From the NCBI GenBank assembly GCA_945873115.1, contig CAMCBT010000014.1, forward strand, positions 1 through 38,543: DNA of 38,543 nucleotides, written 5' to 3'. The notes under the pieces are model-generated. The model was not told the origin of the DNA. It ran no database searches and was given only the letters and a program-made list of their open reading frames with translations. The position numbers were made by a program, and so were the translations under genes. This document shows, piece by piece, positions 3,733 to 16,717 of the stretch (positions are counted from its first letter, which is position 1; every line of letters begins with the position of its first letter). This DNA is from an uncultured Mitsuokella sp. GTDB lineage: Bacteria; Bacillota; Negativicutes; Selenomonadales; Selenomonadaceae.

Positions 3733-4515
3733 TCAGGCCGATGGCGAGGCGGCCGCCTCCAGGAGAAGGGCCTGCGCCGCCAAAAGCTCCTCCGCCGACC
3801 GGGCAAGGAGACACACGAGCACTGCCCCAGCTTCCTCCGCCAGTCGCGTCACGCCGCCGGTGCGGGACGGCGCCTCCAGCCAGGGCGCGAGCAAAGCCCG
3901 ACAGTCCTCCACGTCAAGGGTTCCCACCAATAGGAAAGTGGCGTGATGTGTATAGCCCTCGTAGAGGCAGATGCCGCCCATGTCCATCTCCCGGGGCGCA
4001 AAGAGCGTATTGTCGTAGTAGAGGAGCTCTCCCTCCTGCCGCAGGCGGATCCGAGACGCATAGCGCCTGTAGGAAAATGGGGCCTCGAAGGCAGCCCGCC
4101 CGCAAGCGAGGATGTCGCTGAAGAAGAGCTTTGCCCCTCGCGCAAGATCGATAGCCGTCTCCCCGGTAAAGCAGGAGTCCCCGAAGGGCAGTGTCGGCAG
4201 GGGCGTGTAGAAGAGCGCCGCCCCCGCCTCCACCTGGATATGGAGCTCGCGGCGGGCCACCCCCGCCTCCATGCGGTGGATTTTTTCAAAAGACTGGCTC
4301 GTGACCTCAGCGCGGGCACCCCTCGCCGCTGTGATATGGATGCGCTCCTCGTCCCCTGCCATAAGGCCTGCGGAGGACTTCATGACGACGAGGCGCTGCC
4401 TCCCCTTTGCCGCAAAGGGACGCATGACCTTGAAGGGGGCGGTGAAGTGGAGCTTTGCGAGCCGCGGGCCCTCAAAGCGCAGCGAAAGCTCCGAGGTGCG
4501 GCCGAATGGTGTCAT
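3733..4515 (-). CDS. ureD: Urease accessory protein UreD (UreH)
   Basis: The 260-residue product matches UreD, the scaffold that binds apo-urease with UreF and UreG and provides the path for nickel into the active site. Recognisable family signatures are the N-terminal [12 protein letters not shown] region, SSAGLMAGD, the [11 protein letters not shown] strand, and a central segment with [10 protein letters not shown]. It is the last gene of the urt-ure unit; its ATG overlaps the ureG stop by 4 bases (ATGA), which implies coupled translation of two proteins that act in one complex. The gene is intact. Confidence 0.93.
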
Positions 4516-5117
4516 GCGCCCTCCAGCAGCACGTGGTGACGGATCCAGCCGAGAATCTCCGCCACCCCCTCCCCATGGCGAAGATCCGTAAAGAGAAAGG
4601 ACCGGTCGCCACGCATGCGCCGAGCATCTCGTTCCATGACGGAGAGGTCTGCGCCCACGTAGGGGGCCAGATCCTTCTTGTTGATGACGAGGAGGTCGGA
4701 GCGGGTGATGCCAGGGCCGCCCTTCCGGGGTATCTTCTCACCCTCCGACACATCGATGACGAAGAGTGTGGCGTCCGCAAGCTCTGGGGAGAAGGTGGCG
4801 GAGAGATTGTCCCCGCCGCTCTCGATGAAGACGAGCTGCGCGTCCGGGAATTTCTCCACCAGCTCCTCCACCGCCTCGAGATTCATGGAGGCATCCTCCC
4901 GAATTGCCGTATGGGGGCAGCCGCCCGTCTCCACCCCCAGGATGCGCTCCCGGGGAAGGACGGAGTTCTTCGCCAGGAACTCTGCGTCCTCCTTCGTGTA
5001 GATGTCATTCGTGACGACGACGACGCTGTACTCCTTCGCCAGCGTCCGGGTGAGCGCCTCGATGAGGGCCGTCTTGCCGGAGCCCACAGGGCCCGCCACG
5101 CCGATTTTTACGTACAT
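4512..5117 (-). CDS. ureG: Urease accessory GTPase UreG
   Basis: SIMIBI-class GTPase of 201 residues that delivers nickel to urease with UreDF and UreE. The P-loop GPVGSGKTA (residues 9-17), the nickel-binding Cys67-Pro68-His69, the [17 protein letters not shown] switch region and NKKDL base-recognition motif are all present. The start is supported by AAAGGA six bases before the ATG. In the + direction its 5' flank is immediately followed by a MITE-like element that separates it from ureF; removing the element restores a normal 22-base ureF-ureG gap. Confidence 0.97.
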
Positions 5118-5131
5118 ATGCTTTCCTTTCG

Positions 5132-5293
5132 CTAGAGGGTACCTCTAAAAACCTATAGCACCTCATCTGCACTATCCCTGCCCGGCGTACAAAGCCTCGG
5201 TATAGCACCGCTATGCCTACGTTTTGTCCACCAGACATGGACAGCACATCTGCTTACAGCTAAGACACCACAGTTTTTAGAGGTGCCCTAGAG
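5132..5293. mobile_element. MITE-like element with target site duplication between ureF and ureG
   Basis: A 150-bp non-coding block (5138-5287) is bounded by 15-bp terminal inverted repeats, GGTACCTCTAAAAAC at 5138-5152 and the complement of GGCACCTCTAAAAAC at 5273-5287 (14 of 15 match). Perfect 6-bp direct repeats CTAGAG lie outside it at 5132-5137 and 5288-5293. Inside is a small imperfect hairpin around CGGTATAGC and GCTATGCC, and no gene. This is the structure of a non-autonomous transposon moved in trans by a related transposase. The family is not identified; with CTAG alone as duplication, an IS5-type target would also be possible. Its left copy of the duplication abuts the ureG ribosome site. 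Confidence 0.75.
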
Positions 5294-5295
5294 GT

Positions 5296-5982
5296 CTACG
5301 AGATATAGAGGCGCGTGTAGAGCGTCTCGTGCTGCATGGAGCGGATGTCGAGCCCCGGGGCGGAGCGGCCCAGGGATGCCTCCGGCTCCTCCAGTGCCAT
5401 GCCCACGCACTCGGCCCAGGCCCCCTGCAGGGCCCCTAGGATCCGCTGTCCCTCTGTCTGTGCCAGAGGGACGAGCTTCACACAGGTATTGACAAGGGCG
5501 GAAATCTGGGCATAGGCGTAGTGCGCGACGGCCTCCTGCCGCCCGATGGCGAGCCGCGCCGTGAGGGCCCCATAGCAGACGGGGTGCGAGAGGCGCCGCC
5601 CTGCCGCCTTGACGAAGGCCGCGAAGAAATCGTCCTCCACGAGGCCTGCCGCCTGGGCCGTCTTTGTCAGGCGGCTGCCCAGGCGCACCAAGGCCTCCCG
5701 TATCTCCCGGGGGGCGCGGGCGGCGTAGAGGAGCTCCTCATAGGCCAGCAGCTGCGGCAGGTCCCCCGCCTCCGCCGCCTCATGGGCGAGGCGCACGGCC
5801 AGGAGCTCATTGTAGAGCAGGGCATGGCGTATATAGGCCCGAAGCCAGGCCTCCGCCGCCCTGCCATCCTGCAGGAGCCCCTCCGCCACGTAGGTCTCGA
5901 GGCCATAGGAGTGGGAGAAGCTGCCGATGGGAAAGAGAGCGTCATTGAGCTGCAGGAGCCGGAAGCGCTGCGCCTCATCCAT
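5296..5982 (-). CDS. ureF: Urease accessory protein UreF
   Basis: UreF acts as the GTPase-activating or fidelity partner of UreG in the UreDFG nickel-insertion complex. The family signature LLQLNDALFPIGSFSHSYGLET lies near the N terminus, and the rest is helical as expected; the conserved C-terminal region of the family is present and the gene ends intact at a TAG, two bases from the MITE target duplication. I place the start at the ATG at 5982 (228 residues), just before the conserved region and overlapping ureE by 8 bases. A longer reading from 6054 with GGGGGA upstream adds 24 non-conserved residues and overlaps ureE by 80 bases; it cannot be excluded. Confidence 0.88.
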   Translation of the reverse strand: MDEAQRFRLLQLNDALFPIGSFSHSYGLETYVAEGLLQDGRAAEAWLRAYIRHALLYNELLAVRLAHEAAEAGDLPQLLAYEELLYAARAPREIREALVRLGSRLTKTAQAAGLVEDDFFAAFVKAAGRRLSHPVCYGALTARLAIGRQEAVAHYAYAQISALVNTCVKLVPLAQTEGQRILGALQGAWAECVGMALEEPEASLGRSAPGLDIRSMQHETLYTRLYIS

Positions 5983-6541
5983 GGGCGTGCCCGCCCGGCG
6001 CGTGGTGCCCGTGGGCATGGACGCCATACTCCCCATTCTCTCCATGCGCTCCATGGTCGTGTCCCCCTTCCCGATGGGAATGTGAATGGGCGTGGCTGTG
6101 GCCCTTCGTCATGAGCTGGATCTTCTCCCGGGGGGAGACCACGATATCCGCCTCCCGGCAGGTCACGCCGGCCCCCTGCAGGGCCGACAGGAGCAGTGCG
6201 TTGCAGGGCACGAGAAAGGCGCTCCCCTGCTGGTAGAGGGGCGCATGGCGGTTGCCCACCTCGTAGGCAAAGCGCACGGCCTCGACGGGAGTGGCGGGCT
6301 CGGCGCAGATGACGTGGGCGGGACGGAGGCGCACGACGATGGCCGTCCCCTCCTCCACGGCGAGGACAGAGCCGTCCTCGAGGCCGCCGAAGGCGAGGCG
6401 GATGGCCACATCGCGCCCCGCCGCGCTCTCCTTTCGCAGGATGCGCTTCGCCGCCTCCTCCAGCTCCAGCAGAACGGTGTCCTCCGGAAGCGACGCGTAG
6501 GCCGCCTCCTCTTTTCTTCCTAGTATATTTTCAATCAACAT
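5975..6541 (-). CDS. ureE: Urease nickel metallochaperone UreE with long histidine tail
   Basis: UreE binds nickel and passes it to UreG. The 188-residue product has the N-terminal peptide-binding-like domain and then the metal domain with the conserved GNRH (residues 96-99), whose histidine lies at the dimer interface nickel site. Residues 148-187 form a tail with 14 histidines among Gly, Ala, Ser and Pro, like the nickel-storing tail of Klebsiella UreE and unlike short-tailed homologues. The upstream gap to ureC carries two stem-loops and is 94 bases, so expression may differ from that of ureABC. Confidence 0.95.
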   Translation of the reverse strand: MLIENILGRKEEAAYASLPEDTVLLELEEAAKRILRKESAAGRDVAIRLAFGGLEDGSVLAVEEGTAIVVRLRPAHVICAEPATPVEAVRFAYEVGNRHAPLYQQGSAFLVPCNALLLSALQGAGVTCREADIVVSPREKIQLMTKGHSHAHSHSHREGGHDHGAHGENGEYGVHAHGHHAPGGHAHG

Positions 6542-6554
6542 GCTATCCTCAAGC

Positions 6555-6631
6555 AGGCGGCACGCGCCCCAAATTCGGGCTGTGCCGCCTTTTTTCCATA
6601 GAAGGCTGCACGGCTTTGCCGCAGAGCCTTC
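6555..6631. other. Two stem-loops between ureC and ureE; one is a terminator in the + direction
   Basis: The first hairpin has arms AGGCGGCAC (6555-6563) and GTGCCGCCT (6582-6590), with additional GCCC/GGGC pairing inside, and is followed on the + strand by a six-T run (6590-6595). That is a good intrinsic terminator, but for transcription opposite to the urease genes. The second has arms GAAGGCT (6601-6607) and AGCCTTC (6625-6631) with a CGGC/GCCG inner stem. On the minus strand neither has a T run, so in the urease message they could act as stability or processing elements between ureABC and ureEFGD. Confidence 0.65.
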
Positions 6632-6635
6632 CCCG

Positions 6636-8350
<1,715 letters not shown>

Positions 8351-8354
<4 letters not shown>

Positions 8355-8716
8355 TTCGCTGCCTCCCCTCGGATAAAGCCCTGCTCCCTCGCCCGCTCTA
8401 TTGCCTCCTCCTTCGAGGCGCCCTGGGTCAGATTGTTCGCGCCAAAGCTGCGCTTTGCCCCGCCGATGGCCACGAGATCCACGGTGCGGATCTCGCCGGG
8501 CTCAAAGCGGACGCTGGTGCCAGAGGGAATGTCGAGGCGCATGCCAAAGGCCTCCTCCCTAGCAAAGGAGAGGAGGCGGTTCGCCTCGAAAAATGGAAAA
8601 TGCGCCCCGACCTGGATGGGGCGGTCGCCGGTATTCGTCACAGCCAGCCTATGCTGCTTTCGCCCTGCGTTCAGCTCGATGTTGCCCTCGCAGAGGATGT
8701 ATTCGCCTGGTATCAT
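8351..8716 (-). CDS. ureB: Urease subunit beta
   Basis: A 121-residue structural subunit of urease. It begins [19 protein letters not shown], the standard UreB N terminus, and carries [16 protein letters not shown] and GFGANNLT-like C-terminal sequence as in other separate-chain beta subunits. In this organism the beta and gamma chains are separate genes, as in most bacteria and unlike Helicobacter where they are fused. It lies 11 bases after ureA and overlaps ureC by 4 bases. Confidence 0.97.
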
Positions 8717-8727
8717 GGTGTCCTCCC

Positions 8728-9030
8728 TCAGCCTATCGGATTGTGAACGGTGACGAGCTTCGTCCCGTCGGGAAAGGTAGCCTCGATCTGGACGGAAGCC
8801 ACCATCTCGGGGACGCCCTCGAGGACGTCGTCCCGGGTGAGGAGGGTGCGCCCAAGCTCCATGAGCTCTGTGACGCGCTTGCCGTCCCGAGCCATCTCCA
8901 TGAGCTGCATGGAGATGTAGGCGACGGCCTCGGGGTAGTTGAGCTTCAGCCCCCGCCCCCGCCGCTCTTCAGCCAGCCGCCCCGCATAGTGGAGCATGAG
9001 CTTTTCCATATCCTTCGGCACAAGATGCAT
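8728..9030 (-). CDS. ureA: Urease subunit gamma
   Basis: A 100-residue small subunit, exactly the usual UreA length. It has the conserved [26 protein letters not shown] start (read in two parts: KDMEKLML and [15 protein letters not shown]), then [27 protein letters not shown] at the end. AAAGGA lies seven bases before the ATG. It follows urtE after only 17 bases, which ties urease to the urea transporter in one transcript. Confidence 0.97.
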
Positions 9031-9047: not shown

Positions 9048-9740
9048 TTATGAAGCAAGCATGCAGCTTTCGATTTCTTCCTTGGAGAGCTCGGCCCTAT
9101 TTCCCTCCAAGACGACGCGCCCTTTATCCATGATGTAGCAGTAGTCGGCTACGTCGAGGGCGAAGTCCAGGTACTGCTCCACCAGCAGGATGGAGAGGCC
9201 TGTCTTTTCGTTGACGCTCCGGATGGCTCGGCCGATGTCCTTTATGATGGAGGGCTGGATGCCCTCTGTGGGCTCATCGAGGAGCAGGAGCTTCGGGCCG
9301 CCGATGAGGGCGCGGGCTATGGCCAGCTGTTGCTGCTGGCCGCCGGAGAGGTCGCCGCCCTTCCGGGCGAGGAACTTCTTCACATCGGGAAAGAGGGCGA
9401 AGAGTGCCGCCTCGTCCGTGCCCTTGCCTCCCGTCGCGAGGCCCAGATGGAGGTTTTCCTCCACGGTCATCTGTGGGAAGATGTCGCGGCCCTGGGGCAC
9501 GTAGCCGATTCCCTTATGGGCGCGGGTGTAGGTGGCGTAGCCTGTGATGTCCTCACCGGCCAGCCGCACGCTGCCGCCCGTCACGTCCACGAGCCCCATG
9601 ATGCCGCGCAGCGTCGTGGTCTTGCCCACGCCATTGCGCCCCACGAGGGCGCAGATCTTCCCGTCGGGCACGGAGAGTGTCACGCCGTGTAGCGCCTCGC
9701 TGCCGCTGTAGGCAGCCTTCAGATTTCGCACCTCAAGCAT
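9048..9740 (-). CDS. urtE: Urea ABC transporter ATP-binding protein UrtE
   Basis: One of two ATPases that power the UrtBC urea permease. The 230-residue protein has Walker [10 protein letters not shown], the signature [15 protein letters not shown] and Walker [17 protein letters not shown], the last being typical of the LivF/UrtE branch. The ATG at 9740 is preferred over an in-frame codon at 9782 because GGGGGGAAGCCA precedes it and the conserved [11 protein letters not shown] starts there; it overlaps the urtD stop by 8 bases. Confidence 0.95.
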
Positions 9741-10491
9741 TGGCTTCCCCCCGTCCCAGATAGACCTCCTGGACCTTCTCATTCTTCATCACGTCCGTGG
9801 CGCTCCCCTCGACGAGGACGGCGCCCTCATGCATGACGGTCACGCTGTCGGCGATGCTCTTCATGAACTCCATGTCGTGCTCCACGACGGCGACGGCACA
9901 GCGGTCCTTGATGGACTCCAGGATATTCGCCGTCTTCTCCGTCTCGCGGCCGCCCATGCCGGCCACCGGCTCGTCCAGCAGCAGGAGCTTCGGCTCCTGC
10001 ACCAGGAGCATGGCGATTTCCAGCCACTGCTTCTCGCCGTGGGACAGGCTCTTTGCCCGCTCCTTGCTCTTCTCGTCGAGGCCCACGAGATGGAGCACCT
10101 CGTGGATCTTCTTCGTGTCCATGTAGCGCTTCCGAGCGAGGATGGAGCCGAATACGCTCTTGTCCCTGTTGAGCGAGATGCGCATGTTATCGTAGACACT
10201 GAGGTTGACGAAGGTGGAGGGTGTCTGGAACTTGCGGCAGATGCCCTTCTTCACGATTTCATACTCCTTGAGCTTCAGGAGGCTGCCCACCCCGTCGCAG
10301 GTCACATCGCCTGCGCTGGGGCGGGTCTTGCCGCAGATCACATCGAGGAGCGTCGTCTTGCCCGCGCCGTTCGGCCCGATGAAGAAATGTATCGTATTCG
10401 GGGCCACATCCGTCGTCACGTCGTTTATCGCCTTGAAGCCGTCGAACTCCACAGAGATGTGGCGAAGGCTCAAGAGTGCGTCTGAATTCAT
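9733..10491 (-). CDS. urtD: Urea ABC transporter ATP-binding protein UrtD
   Basis: Second ATPase of the urea importer, 252 residues, LivG/UrtD branch. Walker A GPNGAGKTTLLD, the signature SHGEKQWLEIAM and Walker B LLLLDEPVAGM are intact; SHGEKQWLEI is characteristic of UrtD. The start at 10491 is set by GAGGAGGG five bases upstream, 11 bases after the urtC stop; a longer reading from 10599 would run into urtC and has a low-complexity, non-family N terminus. Confidence 0.95.
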   Translation of the reverse strand: MNSDALLSLRHISVEFDGFKAINDVTTDVAPNTIHFFIGPNGAGKTTLLDVICGKTRPSAGDVTCDGVGSLLKLKEYEIVKKGICRKFQTPSTFVNLSVYDNMRISLNRDKSVFGSILARKRYMDTKKIHEVLHLVGLDEKSKERAKSLSHGEKQWLEIAMLLVQEPKLLLLDEPVAGMGGRETEKTANILESIKDRCAVAVVEHDMEFMKSIADSVTVMHEGAVLVEGSATDVMKNEKVQEVYLGRGEANA

Positions 10492-10502
10492 AGTATCCCT
10501 CC

Positions 10503-11504
10503 TCAGGAATCGGCCTGAGCCCGGGCCGCCCCCGACAGGCAGCGGCGGAAATGGGTGCGGAGGCCCTCCACGCCGCCGACGATGCCCTTTGGCAGGCACA
10601 GGACGACGAGGACGAACAGGAGGCCGACGAAGTAGAGCCAGGCCCCCGGCATGGTCTCGCTGACCCCCGTCTTCAGGATGCTCACGAGGAAGGCCCCGAG
10701 CACTGCGCCGATGAGGGTGCCGCGGCCGCCGACGGCGACCCAGATGACCATCTCCACGGAGAAGGCGATGTCGAGCTCCTTCGGCGAGATGATGCCCGCA
10801 AAGGGCACGTAGGGTGCGCCGGCAAGGGCTGCGAGGGCTGCGGAAATGCAGAAGATGAAGGTCTTGTAGCGGCTTGCATCGTAGCCCGTGAAGTTCGTGC
10901 GGTTCTCCCCATCCCGTATGGCAATGAGAATTTTCCCCAGATCCCGGCTTATGAGCCAGGTGGAGCCGATATAGGCCAAGGCGAGGACAGCGACGGCGAG
11001 GTAGTAGAGCTTCACCATGTCAAGGGGTGCCGTCAGCGACATGCCGAAGTAGTCGGCAAAGCCCGTGATGCCATTGCTGCCGCCGGTGTAAGCCTGCATG
11101 CCGATGAATATGGTGACAAAGGCCCACGCAAGTGCCTGGGAGAGTATCGAAAAATACACGCCCTTGATGCGGTTGCGAAAAGTCATGAAGCCCAGGAGGA
11201 AGGCCAGCACCACCGGCACGAGGATGGCGAGGATGAGAGCCGCAGGCCCCGAGCGCAGGGGCTCCAAAAAGACTGGGAGCGCGTCGAGGCCGCCCGTCTT
11301 CATGAAGGCCGGCAGCACCGTGCCGAGGGACGCGAGCTTCAGGTGCATGGCGACGATGTAGGCACCAAGGCCGAAGAAGACCGCATGCCCGAGGCTCAGG
11401 ATTCCCGTGTAGCCCCAGATGAGGTCGATGCCGAGAGCCACGATGGCGTAACAGACGAACTTCGCCAAAAGCGTGAGCCGGAAGAGCGACAGCACGAAGG
11501 GCAT
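10503..11504 (-). CDS. urtC: Urea ABC transporter permease UrtC, N terminus interrupted upstream
   Basis: Second membrane subunit of the urea importer, LivM-like, with multiple hydrophobic segments and the family sequences AIVALGIDLIWGYTGILSLGHAVFFGLGAY, GGSNGITGFADYFG and IWVAVGGRGTLIGAVLGA (read here as motifs). The open frame from the ATG at 11504 gives 333 residues. However, the well-placed ribosome site (GGGAGGG) and ATG lie 75 bases upstream at 11579 in the same frame, and codon 12 of that longer reading is TGA. The annotated protein therefore probably starts inside the first membrane helix and depends on reinitiation without a clear ribosome site. It may be non-functional or weakly expressed, unless the TGA is a sequencing error. 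Confidence 0.8.
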   Translation of the reverse strand: MPFVLSLFRLTLLAKFVCYAIVALGIDLIWGYTGILSLGHAVFFGLGAYIVAMHLKLASLGTVLPAFMKTGGLDALPVFLEPLRSGPAALILAILVPVVLAFLLGFMTFRNRIKGVYFSILSQALAWAFVTIFIGMQAYTGGSNGITGFADYFGMSLTAPLDMVKLYYLAVAVLALAYIGSTWLISRDLGKILIAIRDGENRTNFTGYDASRYKTFIFCISAALAALAGAPYVPFAGIISPKELDIAFSVEMVIWVAVGGRGTLIGAVLGAFLVSILKTGVSETMPGAWLYFVGLLFVLVVLCLPKGIVGGVEGLRTHFRRCLSGAARAQADS

Positions 11505-11579
11505 GGCAATGAGTGCCGCCAGCAGCAGGAGGAAGGCGATGTTTCACCTATCCTGCAGAAAGAATCGAATCGCTTGCAT
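11505..11579 (-). other. Original 5' end of urtC with in-frame TGA codon
   Basis: ATG at 11579-11577 follows GGGAGGGAAATC, a strong ribosome site 18 bases after the urtB stop. It reads MQAIRFFLQDR, then TGA at 11546-11544, then NIAFLLLLAALIA directly into the MPFVLSLF start of the open urtC frame. In homologues a tryptophan commonly precedes such an (N)(I/L)AFLLLLAAL helix, so a TGG-to-TGA change is the simplest explanation. The rest of the gene is intact. Confidence 0.75.
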
Positions 11580-11597
11580 GATTTCCCTCCCTTTCCT

Positions 11598-12485
11598 TTA
11601 GTCCAGTGCCCGCGTGCGCAGGGCGAAGAGGCCCTGGGGCTTCTTCTGCAGGAAGAGGACCACGAGGAAGAGCACGGCGGCCTTTGCGATGGAGGCCGTG
11701 GCCACCCACTCGAGCACCGTCCCCGCCACGCCGATGAGCACCGCACCGGCAATCGTGCCGATGAGCTTTCCGACGCCGCCGAGGACGACCACCATGAAGG
11801 TGTCGACGATGTAGCTCGTGCCGAGCGTCGGCCCGATGGAGCCCAGGAGCGTCAGGGCGCAGCCCGCCACGCCGGCGAGGCCGGAGCCGAGGGCGAACGT
11901 CATGCAGTCGATGCGCTTCGTGCGGATGCCGAGGCAGGCCGCCATCTCCCTATTTTGGATGCAGGCGCGCATCCGGCGGCCGAACTCCGTCTTGTAGAGG
12001 ATGGCTAGGACGAGGGCGAGGGCCGCCCCCACCAGGAGCAGGATAAAGAGCCGCTTGTAGGACATGGTGACGCCCAAAAGCTCGAGGCTGCCGCCGAGAA
12101 AGGCCGGTGCCACCACATTGACATTCGGTGCGCCGAAGATGCTCCGGGCCAGCTGCTGGAGAATGAGGCTCACGCCCCAGGTCGCCAGCAGGCTGTCCGT
12201 CGCCCGACCGTACAGCCGGCGGATGACGAGCACCTCCAGGGCGACTCCGAAGAGGGCCGCCACCAGGAAGGCGAGGACGATGGAGACAAAGAAGTAGGCA
12301 TCGCCGAGGACGCTGCCCAGAGCCTTCTGAACCACGTAGGTGGTGTAGGCCCCCACCATGATGAATTCGCCATGGGCCATGTTGATGATGCCCATGAGGC
12401 CGAAGGTGATAGCGAGCCCGAGGGCCGCCAGGAGGAGAATCGAGGAAAGGCTTATGCCATTAAAGAGTATTGTCAGTGCATCCAT
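11598..12485 (-). CDS. urtB: Urea ABC transporter permease UrtB
   Basis: LivH-like membrane subunit of the urea importer, 295 residues with about eight hydrophobic segments. Family sequences include GLAITFGLMGIINMAHGEFIMVGAY near the N terminus, WGVSLILQQLARSIFG, and the PTLGTSYIVDTFMVVVLGGVGKL region near the C terminus (given as motifs). The ATG at 12485 is chosen over an upstream TTG at 12509; GAGAG precedes it, and it is 10 bases after the urtA stop. Confidence 0.94.
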   Translation of the reverse strand: MDALTILFNGISLSSILLLAALGLAITFGLMGIINMAHGEFIMVGAYTTYVVQKALGSVLGDAYFFVSIVLAFLVAALFGVALEVLVIRRLYGRATDSLLATWGVSLILQQLARSIFGAPNVNVVAPAFLGGSLELLGVTMSYKRLFILLLVGAALALVLAILYKTEFGRRMRACIQNREMAACLGIRTKRIDCMTFALGSGLAGVAGCALTLLGSIGPTLGTSYIVDTFMVVVLGGVGKLIGTIAGAVLIGVAGTVLEWVATASIAKAAVLFLVVLFLQKKPQGLFALRTRALD

Positions 12486-12495
12486 ATGTATTCTC

Positions 12496-13725
12496 TCATT
12501 CCGAGGCAAGGCCCTTCGCCCACTCGTAGGTGGCGAGGAAGGGATCCGGCTTGATGGGTTCCGTCACGGAGACTTCGTCGATGAGGCCATTTGCATTGAC
12601 CTTGCCGATGCGGACGCGCTTGTAGAGGTGCTGGTTCTCCCCATCGATCTTGACATCGCCCTCCGGCGCGTCAAAGGCGATGTCAGCTGCTGCCTTGCGC
12701 ACGGCCTCCACATCGAAGGAGCCTGCCTTCTCCACGGCCGCCTTCCAGAGATAGACCGCATCGTAGGCCGCCTCGATGGGGTCGTCCGTCACCCGATCCT
12801 CCCCGTAGACCTTCTTGTAGGCGGCGACGAATTTCTCATTGGCAGGTGTCGCCGTCGTCTCATAGTAGTTCCAGGAGACCAGGTCGCCGACGATGTTCTG
12901 GGCGCCGATGCCCTTGACCTCTTCCTCTGCGATGCTGAAGCTCATGACGGAAATCGTGTCTGCCGAGATGCCCGCATCCTTGAGCTGCTTGAAGAAGGCC
13001 ACGTTGGAGTCGCCGTTCAGCGTGTTGACGATGACATCCGGCTTTGCGGCGCGAATCTTGCTGATGATGGTCGCGTAGTCCGTGTGCCCCATGGGCGTGT
13101 ACTCCTCGCCGACGCACTCACCGCCAGAGGCCGCTAGCTGGGCTTTCACGATGCGGTTCGCCGTCTGGGGGAAGACGTAGTCGCTGCCCACCAGGAACAT
13201 CTTTTTCTTGCCCGCCTTCAGGAGGAAGTCGATGGCCGGGACGATCTGCTGGTTCGGCGCAGCGCCCATGTACATGATGTTCTTCGAGGCCTCCATGCCC
13301 TCATACTGGACAGGATACCAGAGAAGCCCGTTTGCACTTTCCACCACAGGCTTCACCGCCTTGCGGGAGGCCGAGGTCCAGCAGCCGAAGACGGTTGCGA
13401 CCCGATCTCTCTGGAAGAGCTTTTTCGCCTTCTCCGCGAAGATCTGCGGGTCGGAGGCGCCGTCCTCCTCGACGATTTCTATTTTCTTCCCGAGGACGCC
13501 GCCGGAGGCGTTTATCTCATCGATGGCCAGCTTCTCCGCATCCCGCACGGAGGTCTCGCTGATGGCCATGGTGCCGCTCAGGGAGTGGAGAAGTCCCACC
13601 TTCACCGTGTCGCCCGATACGGCGTTGCCGCCGCCCCCAAGGGCGCTGTCGCCGCCGCAGCCGGCGGTCATCAGCCCGAAAGCAAGTACCGAGGCGGTAA
13701 GAAGACCCTTCGCAAATCGCTTCAT
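12496..13725 (-). CDS. urtA: Urea ABC transporter substrate-binding lipoprotein UrtA
   Basis: High-affinity urea-binding lipoprotein of 409 residues. The N terminus [19 protein letters not shown] is a signal peptide followed by the lipobox TAGC, so the mature protein is anchored to membrane lipid through its first cysteine. The rest matches the Leu/Ile/Val-type periplasmic binding fold of UrtA, with [47 protein letters not shown] and [13 protein letters not shown] as recognisable urea-specific sequences. AGAGGG lies before the ATG. It is the first gene of a 12-gene unit and has a 110-base leader with an attenuator. Confidence 0.95.
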
Positions 13726-13780: not shown

Positions 13781-13830
13781 GAAAACGAGACCCGTGGGCA
13801 GGTACCATGCCCACGAGCCTCGTTGCTCGT
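13781..13830 (-). promoter_or_regulatory. Leader terminator with mutually exclusive 5' hairpin (attenuator) upstream of urtA
   Basis: On the minus strand a 16-bp stem (arms 13823-13808 and 13800-13785, two G-U pairs, 7-nt loop) is followed by TTTTCGTTT, a strong intrinsic terminator lying between the promoter and the urtA start. Its 5' arm is shared with a 6-bp hairpin ACGAGC-AACGAG-GCTCGT (13830-13813), so both cannot form at once. The hexaloop AACGAG has A at position 1 and G at position 4, the pattern described for ANTAR-protein RNA targets. A second weaker inverted repeat, GTTTCC/GGAAAC (13780-13756), follows. Regulation by an ANTAR or other antiterminator is inference; only one such hairpin is seen, whereas ANTAR targets usually have two. 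Confidence 0.65.
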
Positions 13831-13837
13831 ATGTGTG

Positions 13838-13859
13838 ACATTTTAGTGCAGTAAAATGT
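13838..13859. promoter_or_regulatory. Perfect dyad overlapping the urt promoter
   Basis: ACATTTTA-N6-TAAAATGT is a perfect 8-bp inverted repeat with six bases between the arms. It covers the -10 box and part of the spacer of the urt promoter, so a dimeric regulator bound here would block or remodel initiation. If transcription enters from the kor operon, the same sequence would form an RNA hairpin with a 6-nt loop just before the 5' hairpin of the attenuator. It does not match the TnrA/GlnR box. Confidence 0.5.
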
Positions 13860-13868
13860 GTTTGTCAA
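13840..13868 (-). promoter_or_regulatory. Sigma-70-type promoter of the urt-ure unit
   Basis: TTGACA (13868-13863), a 17-base spacer and TAAAAT (13845-13840) on the minus strand. Initiation about seven bases on would put the 5' end at roughly 13834, only a few bases before the leader hairpin. This is the only good promoter seen for the 12 downstream genes. Confidence 0.85.
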
Positions 13869-13910
13869 TAAGCTGCAACTATGTATACATGAATACGTAA
13901 TAATCCAGCA

Positions 13911-14238: not shown

Positions 14239-14763
14239 TTATTTTGCGGCCTCATAGCCGATGCGGAGAGCCTTTTCGTTGGCCTCCACCGTATGGGGCG
14301 GGACGCGCTTTGCCACGCAGTCCTTCACCGTGTCGAGGCTCACGAGGCCCGTGAGCCGGACGATGGCCCCGAGGGCCACGATGTTGGCGAAGAGGGGCTT
14401 TCCCACCTGCTCGATGGCGAGCTTCGTGATGGGGATTCTTCTCGTATTGGAAAAGTTCGGGGGATTTGGCACCAGCTCCTCATCGAGGAGCAGTAATCCC
14501 TCCGGCGACAAATCCTTGTAGTATTTATCTGCCGCCTTCTGGGTCATGGCCAGGACGAAGTCTGGGTGCTCCACATGGGGATGGTAGATGGTCTCGTCCG
14601 AGAGGATGACCTCCGCCTTTGCGGCGCCGCCCCTAGCCTCCGGGCCGTAGGACTGGGACTGGCAGACCTCCCGGCCCTCGAGAGCCGCAGCCTCGCCCAG
14701 GAGCACCGCCGCCGTGATGACCCCCTGGCCGCCGGATCCAGAGAAACGCAATTCCTTTTTCAT
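14239..14763 (-). CDS. korC: 2-oxoacid:ferredoxin oxidoreductase, gamma subunit
   Basis: A 174-residue gamma subunit, recognised by RFSGSGGQGVITAA at the N terminus and QSQSYGPEARGGAAKAEV, both conserved in gamma subunits of ferredoxin oxidoreductases, followed by IVALGAIVRLTG. With KorA, KorB and KorD it should oxidatively decarboxylate a 2-oxoacid to acyl-CoA using ferredoxin, or run in reverse. The ATG overlaps the korB stop by 4 bases. Confidence 0.92.
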   Translation of the reverse strand: MKKELRFSGSGGQGVITAAVLLGEAAALEGREVCQSQSYGPEARGGAAKAEVILSDETIYHPHVEHPDFVLAMTQKAADKYYKDLSPEGLLLLDEELVPNPPNFSNTRRIPITKLAIEQVGKPLFANIVALGAIVRLTGLVSLDTVKDCVAKRVPPHTVEANEKALRIGYEAAK

Positions 14764-15581
14764 CGCACACCTCCTGCCCGATCCACGAGCTCCTCGTAGG
14801 ACGTATTGAAGTCCTCCACCTCCCGCTTCAGGAAGCAGCCGATGGGGAATTTCCCCTGCCGCTTATCAGCCGGGAGCTTCTCCCAGGCGGAAAGCATGAC
14901 AGCGCTATCTCGCATGTGCTTCATCATGTCGGCGCCGCTTCCCAGCCGGTTTTTCCGCCCGTAGGCCGTGGGGCACTGGACGTAGGCCTCGATGAAGGAG
15001 AAGCCCTTGTTATCGATGCCTTCTCCGATGAGCTTTGCCAGGTGACGCACATGGTAGGCGGTGGAGCGGCCCACGTAGGTGGCGCCTGCCGCCATGGCAA
15101 TGTGGCAGGCATCGAAGGGGCGGACGCTCGTGCCGTAAGGTGCCGTGGTGGTCAGCCGGTCAAGGGGTGTCGTGGGGGAGCCCTGGCCGCCGGTCATGCC
15201 GTAAATCTCATTGTTGAACATGATGACGGTCAGGTCCACATTGCGCCGGCAGCCGTGGATGAAATGATTGCCGCCGATGGCGGTGCAGTCCCCGTCGCCG
15301 GTGATGACGATGACGTGGAGCCGCGGGTTCGCCAGCTTAATGCCCGTGGCAAAGGGGATGGCTCGGCCATGGGCCGTGTGGAGTGTATCGAAATCCATGT
15401 AGCCCGAGGCCCTCGACGAGCAGCCGATGCCGGAGACGATGACCGTCTCGTCCTGTGGGAGGCCCTTTTCCTCGATGGCCATGACGATGGCCTTCATGGC
15501 AAGGCCGTTGCCGCAGCCGGGGCACCAGATATGTGGGAGGCGCCCCTCCCGGAAATACTTTTCGTAGCTTCTCTCCATCAT
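14760..15581 (-). CDS. korB: 2-oxoacid:ferredoxin oxidoreductase, beta subunit (TPP-binding)
   Basis: A 273-residue thiamine-diphosphate subunit. CPGCGNG at residues 20-26 gives two iron-sulfur cluster ligands; the TPP/Mg motif GDGDCTAIGGNHFIHGCRRN is followed by NNEIYGMTGGQ. The sequence ends near residue 273 without an extra cluster domain. Reading frame overlaps korA by 4 bases upstream and korC by 4 bases downstream, a tightly coupled complex. The substrate could be 2-oxoglutarate or branched-chain 2-oxoacids; the sequence alone does not decide. Confidence 0.93.
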   Translation of the reverse strand: MMERSYEKYFREGRLPHIWCPGCGNGLAMKAIVMAIEEKGLPQDETVIVSGIGCSSRASGYMDFDTLHTAHGRAIPFATGIKLANPRLHVIVITGDGDCTAIGGNHFIHGCRRNVDLTVIMFNNEIYGMTGGQGSPTTPLDRLTTTAPYGTSVRPFDACHIAMAAGATYVGRSTAYHVRHLAKLIGEGIDNKGFSFIEAYVQCPTAYGRKNRLGSGADMMKHMRDSAVMLSAWEKLPADKRQGKFPIGCFLKREVEDFNTSYEELVDRAGGVR

Positions 15582-16717
15582 GCATCCCTCCCTGCCAGCT
15601 TCCTGATGTTTGCGAGAATCTCTGCCGGCGTCAGTGAGGTCATATCGTACTTGCCGCAGAGCTCGACCCGGGCCTTCCCATGGACGGCCCGGTCTACCTC
15701 CCGGACGAGCTGGCCATAGCTGAGCTCCGCCACGAGGATGGAGTCCACCCGCTCCGCCAGACGCAGAAGTGCCGCGTCCGCAAAGGGCCAGACGGTGATG
15801 AGGCGGAGAAGCCCCACGGGGATGCCCTCTTTGCGTGCCTCTCGCACCGCCTCGTAGGCCGTGCGGGCCGTGCCCCCCATGGCCACGACAGCAAACCTTG
15901 CGTCCTCCAGGAAGGACTCCTCCACATGGATGATTTCCTCCCCCACCCGCTCGATTTTTTTGTGAAGACGACGGATGTCGTCGCGGGTCACCGTAGGGCT
16001 GCCGGCGGGGAAGCCCGTGCCGTCATGGATGAGGCCCGTCACATGGATGTGGTAGCCCTGGCCGAAGTCCGCCGTGTCCGGCACCCCATCCGAGGCCGGC
16101 CTGTAGGGCTCATAGCCCTCGGCCCGGCTCTCGTGGGGCCTCCTGCGGGGATAGACCTCGACGCTCTCGGGCAGCTCCACCCTTTCGCGGAGGTGGCCCA
16201 CCATCTCGTCCATCAGCAGGATGACCGGCGTGCGGAATCGCTCGCTGTAGTTCACCGCCCGCACCGTGAGATCAAAGGTCTCCCGGACGCTCCAGGGGGA
16301 CAGCGCGATGACGGGATGATCCCCGTGGGTGCCCCAGCGCACCTGCATGATATCCCCCTGGGAGGGCGCCGTGGGCTGGCCCGTGGAGGGGCCCACCCGC
16401 TGCACATCCACCAGCACACAGGGAATCTCCGCGCAGGCCCCGTAGCCGATGAGCTCCTGCTTCAGGGAAAAGCCAGGGCCCGAGGTGGCATCCATGGCCT
16501 TCGCCCCCGCAAGCGATGCCCCGAGTACCGCGCCGAAGCTTGCAATCTCGTCTTCCATCTGGAGGAAGGTTCCATCCTTCTTCGGCAAAAGCTTCGCCAT
16601 GGACTCGGCAATCTCCGTGGAGGGGGTGATGGGATAGCCCGCGAAGAAATTCACACCGGCAGCTATCGCTCCCTCGGCGCAGGCCTCATTGCCCTGCATC
16701 AGTCTTGCCTTGCTCAT
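15578..16717 (-). CDS. korA: 2-oxoacid:ferredoxin oxidoreductase, alpha subunit (KorA/VorB type)
   Basis: A 379-residue alpha subunit with GNEACAEGAIAAG, FFAGYPITPSTEIAE, QMEDEIASFGAVLGAS and ATSGPGFSLKQE, the conserved pyrimidine-domain motifs, and QRVGPSTGQPT. Close homologues are often labelled 3-methyl-2-oxobutanoate dehydrogenase subunit VorB or 2-oxoglutarate synthase alpha, so the acid used is open. The ATG overlaps the ferredoxin gene stop by 4 bases. No gamma domain is fused; that is the separate downstream gene. Confidence 0.92.
   Translation of the reverse strand: MSKARLMQGNEACAEGAIAAGVNFFAGYPITPSTEIAESMAKLLPKKDGTFLQMEDEIASFGAVLGASLAGAKAMDATSGPGFSLKQELIGYGACAEIPCVLVDVQRVGPSTGQPTAPSQGDIMQVRWGTHGDHPVIALSPWSVRETFDLTVRAVNYSERFRTPVILLMDEMVGHLRERVELPESVEVYPRRRPHESRAEGYEPYRPASDGVPDTADFGQGYHIHVTGLIHDGTGFPAGSPTVTRDDIRRLHKKIERVGEEIIHVEESFLEDARFAVVAMGGTARTAYEAVREARKEGIPVGLLRLITVWPFADAALLRLAERVDSILVAELSYGQLVREVDRAVHGKARVELCGKYDMTSLTPAEILANIRKLAGRDA

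Follow-up and report, generated by a model that had tools for sequence, protein, structure and literature searches.

The urea operon of an uncultured Mitsuokella sp. is very probably preceded by an ANTAR-type transcription attenuator that works with a single hexaloop, a reading to which we give a probability of about 0.87. The window, the whole 38,543-nucleotide stretch of DNA that was analyzed, contains the operon and its leader, and the reading draws on the anatomy of that leader, its conservation and covariation, the presence of a regulator with matching contact residues, the co-occurrence of the element with ANTAR proteins, and the absence of the usual first hairpin (P1). An earlier note on this DNA had proposed that the urea genes are controlled by regulated antitermination through an ANTAR protein, and that proposal gains support from the regulator, from the covariation, from related genomes, and from other nitrogen genes.

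A terminator that overlaps a hexaloop hairpin

The features of the operon and its leader are as follows.

3733-9030 (-): ureA, ureB, ureC, ureE, ureF, ureG, and ureD (Pfam)
9048-12509 (-): urtB, urtC, urtD, and urtE, two permeases and two ATPases (Pfam)
12496-13725 (-): urtA, urea-type ABC transporter binding protein (Peripla_BP_5, 1.2e-154)
13783-13777 (-): U-rich tail TTCGTTT, directly 3' of the terminator stem
13824-13784 (-): intrinsic terminator AACGAGGCTCGTGGGCA-TGGTACC-TGCCCACGGGTCTCGTT, 17 pairs, 10 of them GC
13830-13813 (-): single ANTAR-type hairpin ACGAGC-AACGAG-GCTCGT, 6 bp, hexaloop at 13824-13819
13845-13840 (-): -10 box TAAAAT, 17-nt spacer from the -35 box
13868-13863 (-): -35 box TTGACA, from a sequence scan
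13882-13889 (-): TGTATACA palindrome, upstream of the urtA promoter
14239-16717: upstream oxidoreductase genes of the POR family, read in the same direction as urtA

The first gene behind the leader is urtA, and the 12-gene urea unit described earlier, urtABCDE plus seven urease genes, is confirmed, with 11 of the 12 genes identified by Pfam and the ureB frame (8351-8716) assigned by position only. An Rfam search over the whole window matched no leader family. It did return RF02514 (5' ureB sRNA) at 7904-8183 (+), antisense to ureC, with 86.6 bits; this match is probably conserved urease coding sequence and not an sRNA gene.

The promoter reported ahead of urtA is present at 13868-13840 (-) as a near-consensus TTGACA-17-TAAAAT, with 11 of 12 consensus matches, and ranks among the two best promoter-like sites in the 19 kb scanned. 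Judged from spacing, transcription would start near 13833. The hairpin begins 9 nt past the -10 box and so would lie about 2 to 3 nt into the transcript. Its loop, AACGAG, has A at the first position (13824) and G at the fourth (13821), the A1/G4 pattern by which ANTAR-target RNAs are recognized. The terminator's 5' arm is built from the hexaloop and the 3' arm of the small hairpin; the two structures are mutually exclusive, as in antiterminator-type ANTAR targets. The earlier description of a 6-bp hairpin that overlaps the terminator close to the presumed RNA 5' end is accurate, and so are the terminator and its U-rich tail; the stem, given there as 16 bp, has 17 pairs when G-U pairing is included. 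Termination here would release an RNA of about 55 nt. The folding energy of the leader is -35.8 kcal/mol, whereas shuffled sequences average -15.9 (z = -7.3); the hairpin alone folds at -9.6 kcal/mol, a value equaled in 1 of 200 shuffles. From the hairpin/terminator leader to urtA is 58 nt, and a search for a promoter-like site between the terminator and urtA found none.

The element at urtA in related genomes

Among 77 related urtA upstream regions, 28 have a terminator whose fold takes in an A1G4 hexaloop, so that the hairpin-terminator pairing sought in relatives is there; four have a loop with A1 and not G4, six have G4 and not A1, and three have neither. These counts come from a folding-based test, which replaced a strict terminator scan that missed bulged stems. 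Because our model R1 also scores ordinary-looking terminators (L135, L137, L145, L147, and L148), we used loop-class counts with controls. Carriers of the element include Selenomonas, Mitsuokella, Pectinatus, several Clostridia, and rumen Treponema, and a TTGACA-17- promoter stands at the same place in four relatives (L002, L003, L004, and L009). In Treponema, further single-hexaloop terminators occur in L014 (530-572 and 1067-1112) and in L015, L017, L020, L023, L028 (near 1100); lying about 0.8 to 1.5 kb upstream of urtA, they probably precede another nitrogen gene.

Covariation of the stem among relatives had been set beforehand as a test on which the proposal could fall. In nine Selenomonadaceae urtA leaders the fourth stem pair varies, being C-G in four, G-C in three, and A-U in two, and is always paired. 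Across 35 varied hairpins from urtA, amtB, glnA, and the glnH-like gene, the closing C-G pair is invariant (35/35) and the second pair is divided between GC (18) and AU (17). The outer pair, columns 5-18, covaries (AU 13, GC 9, CG 5, and UA 1); since the hairpins were chosen for pairing at the three inner positions, the outer pairs are the only unselected test of covariation. The closing pairs are thus conserved and the outer stem is kept by structure, not by sequence. The whole-helix covariation score was 0.570, compared with 0.266 for shuffled alignments (0 of 500 reached it), and slid controls gave at most 0.185.

The element also follows the presence of an ANTAR protein. It occurs at urtA in 25 of 39 ANTAR-bearing genomes and in none of 10 ANTAR-less ones (p = 0.0002, Fisher test, kinship ignored), a value that overstates the evidence since related genomes are not independent and that should be read, like the Fisher value below, as a direction and not an exact probability. 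Fourteen ANTAR-bearing genomes have no element at urtA.

These results bear on whether the terminator merely ends the upstream oxidoreductase operon, with the hexaloop a chance by-product of an A-rich 5' arm. The POR-family genes (14239-16717) do read in the same direction, and some ordinary terminators of the group begin with AAAGAGGC and are also hits of model R1 (L135, L137, and L147). However, the promoter sits between the oxidoreductase operon and the terminator, with no promoter-like site from there to urtA, and chance cannot yield the A1/G4 class bias, the covariation of the outer pairs, or the link to ANTAR presence. We regard a chance by-product as very unlikely.

Elements at amtB, glnA, and a glnH-like gene

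In the home genome the element accompanies nitrogen metabolism genes besides the urt-ure operon. Two elements stand in tandem at amtB (GGC-AAAGGA-GCC and GGAC-AAAGGC-GTCC), one lies in the glnA leader (TGGC-AAAGGG-GCCA), and one, with a weaker tail, precedes a glnH-like gene (AAGC-AACGGG-GCTT). The list was compiled by targeted searching and may have gaps; scanning the genome by pattern for further hexaloop-plus-T sites mostly returned noise from coding sequence.

Of 29 amtB loci, 26 have one or more A1G4 elements, and together the 29 hold 32 A1G4 hairpins versus 3 of other classes, with the antisense strand yielding 1; in a control of 353 kb of other sequence, A1G4 accounted for 10 of 69. At glnA, the element was present in 19 of 20 ANTAR-bearing and 1 of 5 ANTAR-less Selenomonadaceae and relatives (p = 0.002, Fisher test, kinship again ignored), and shuffles predict 0.05 hits. 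One genome, G194, has an ANTAR protein and lacks the glnA element. In G031, a search for an ANTAR domain detected none, and its glnA region (L248) keeps a hexaloop-like GGC-AGCGTT-GCC, perhaps the relic of a recent ANTAR loss. In one genus (represented by G014 and G126) ANTAR is lost or degraded, and the element is absent at urtA (L041), amtB (L186), and glnA (L253, L254, L264, and L265). In four loci of other Negativicutes (L133, L134, L138, and L140) a single gene is preceded by a pair of single-hexaloop attenuators, one after the other, and some of the loops start with G instead of A (GATGGG and GATGAA).

The TGTATACA palindrome sits 8 to 34 nt ahead of a TTGACA box at only four sites in the genome (the window, C70, C25 = L238, and C21 = L237). 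The genes at these sites are urtA, amtB, a split glutamate synthase, and a hydroxylamine-reductase-like gene, of which the last two were recognized from their sequence and not by a search. Counting one-base variants, the palindrome recurs upstream of nitrogen genes across the family, in 18 of 37 such regions. It probably serves as the DNA operator for another nitrogen regulator, a layer separate from the attenuator.

A candidate regulator and its kinase

The search for an ANTAR response regulator elsewhere in the genome, suggested by the earlier note, turned up exactly one ANTAR protein in the assembly (2.2 Mb, 99% complete), with a match of 6.5e-20. It has a REC and an ANTAR domain, and its gene adjoins that of a PdtaS-type kinase with GAF_PdtaS, HisKA_2, and HATPase domains. 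The regulator aligns over its full length with EutV (6WSH/6WW6) and Rv1626, the latter being the closest solved structure (2e-57). The EutV residues that hold the hexaloop, R142, K143, K147, K149, E160, and Y164 (PMC8934654), correspond to R143, K144, R148, K150, E161, and Y165 and are identical apart from one Lys-to-Arg replacement; the phospho-acceptor aspartate, D54 in that paper and D56 in the chain, served to match the two numberings.

Absence of the first hairpin

Characterized ANTAR antiterminators use two hairpins (PMC3369931), and the leader might accordingly be a canonical two-hairpin one in which the first is degenerate or is supplied by the promoter dyad. We consider this highly unlikely. 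There is no room for P1, because only about 2 to 3 nt of RNA would come before the hairpin, not enough to fold into another, and in the window and the four relatives with TTGACA-17 the distance from the -10 box to the hairpin is 9 to 16 nt, which leaves no space for a further one. A permissive P1 search (hexaloop 3 to 16 nt upstream, bulge allowed) found none in 32 urtA, 32 amtB, and 20 glnA attenuators, 84 in all; wherever a chance expectation was calculated, it came out below 1 for the set. An apparent P1 in L033 was an artefact, its "P1" being the true hexaloop and its "P2" the terminator tip. The same search recovered the canonical pair in both positive controls, the Desulforamulus and Desulforadius amtB leaders (L169 and L187), with linkers of 8 and 7 nt. 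The missing first hairpin that had been pointed out at urtA is therefore real, and it is general across these attenuators.

A perfect 8-bp dyad, ACATTTTA-CTGCAC-TAAAATGT, straddles the -10 box at 13839-13860. The suggestion that it stands in for P1 fails: its loop, CTGCAC, has neither A1 nor G4, it stops about 6 nt short of the presumed start site, and no such dyad was seen in the leaders of relatives.

The second hexaloop upstream that published surveys required (PMC3369931, PMC8164766) is absent here, and a single-hexaloop class would have been missed by them for that reason. In E. faecalis eut leaders the P1-P2 linker is 5 to 12 nt, and at eutP both hairpins were needed in vivo, with induction abolished by P1 deletion (PMC3369931), so that a one-hairpin leader might work poorly. 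Walshe et al. (2022) found that EutV binds a lone P1 or a lone P2 as well as the pair; they redefined the minimal ANTAR site as one hexaloop, held antitermination to need both hairpins, and asked what role single-hexaloop motifs have (PMC8934654). We found no paper on single-hexaloop targets beyond PMC8934654 in the open-access literature. The conserved single-hexaloop variant of known ANTAR attenuation that we predict here is new. P1 may be dispensable because promoter and terminator lie close together, because the attenuators at amtB come in tandem, or because the regulator binds more tightly.

Discussion

Our proposal for protein binding, the direction of control, and the signal is drawn from sequence and runs as follows. 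Transcription would start about 2 to 3 nt before the hairpin, and by default the nascent RNA would fold the 17-pair terminator, stop after about 55 nt, and release the leader. The PdtaS-like kinase would phosphorylate its ANTAR partner, with nitrogen limitation, judging from the target genes, as the likely cue. The ANTAR dimer could then bind the hexaloop through A1, G4, and the closing C-G pair, and the hairpin so stabilized would occupy the 5' arm of the terminator and let polymerase read into urtABCDE-ureABCEFGD. Through single-hexaloop leaders of this kind, the regulator probably also governs amtB and glnA and perhaps the glnH-like gene.

The terminated RNA of about 55 nt might instead itself be the product, a hexaloop RNA that soaks up ANTAR protein, so that the leaders buffer each other. 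Strong promoters (11 to 12 of 12) do stand before strong terminators at urtA and amtB, and there is an analogy in EutX/Rli55, the EutX hexaloops sequestering EutV (PMC8934654). However, the full terminator fold hides the hexaloop and should make the terminated RNA an ineffective decoy, and we think it very unlikely that this is its role.

The proposed attenuation by a single hexaloop resembles EutV/EutW control of the Enterococcus faecalis eut genes in its A1/G4 hexaloop, conserved closing pairs, and terminator overlap (PMC3369931, PMC8934654), and also in the pairing of an ANTAR response regulator with a kinase, the nitrogen theme, and the conserved contact residues. It differs in that E. faecalis has P1 and P2 with a short linker, whereas here there is one hairpin at the presumed RNA 5' end. 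The proteins recall PdtaS-PdtaR (Rv3220c-Rv1626), the regulator being nearest Rv1626 and the kinase having GAF_PdtaS, yet actinobacterial ANTAR-target RNAs are dual stem-loops (PMC8164766), unlike these single hairpins with predicted terminator control. The dual-hexaloop leaders of the Desulfotomaculum type (PMC3369931; L169 and L187) share amtB, the loop rule, and the terminator overlap, but they have P1 and the Negativicutes amtB leaders do not.

It is likely that nitrogen assimilation in the Selenomonadaceae and other Negativicutes, like the urea operons of Clostridia and rumen Treponema, relies on single-hexaloop attenuators as the standard form of ANTAR control. In that case ANTAR antitermination needs no recruitment hairpin, and such regulons were missed because earlier searches demanded two hairpins. 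The leaders are natural, conserved, and promoter-proximal, and come with a terminator, which makes the single-hexaloop question directly testable. Urea use is a major nitrogen route in ruminants, and these attenuators would outline a candidate nitrogen regulon, urea use included, for gut and rumen Negativicutes and treponemes.
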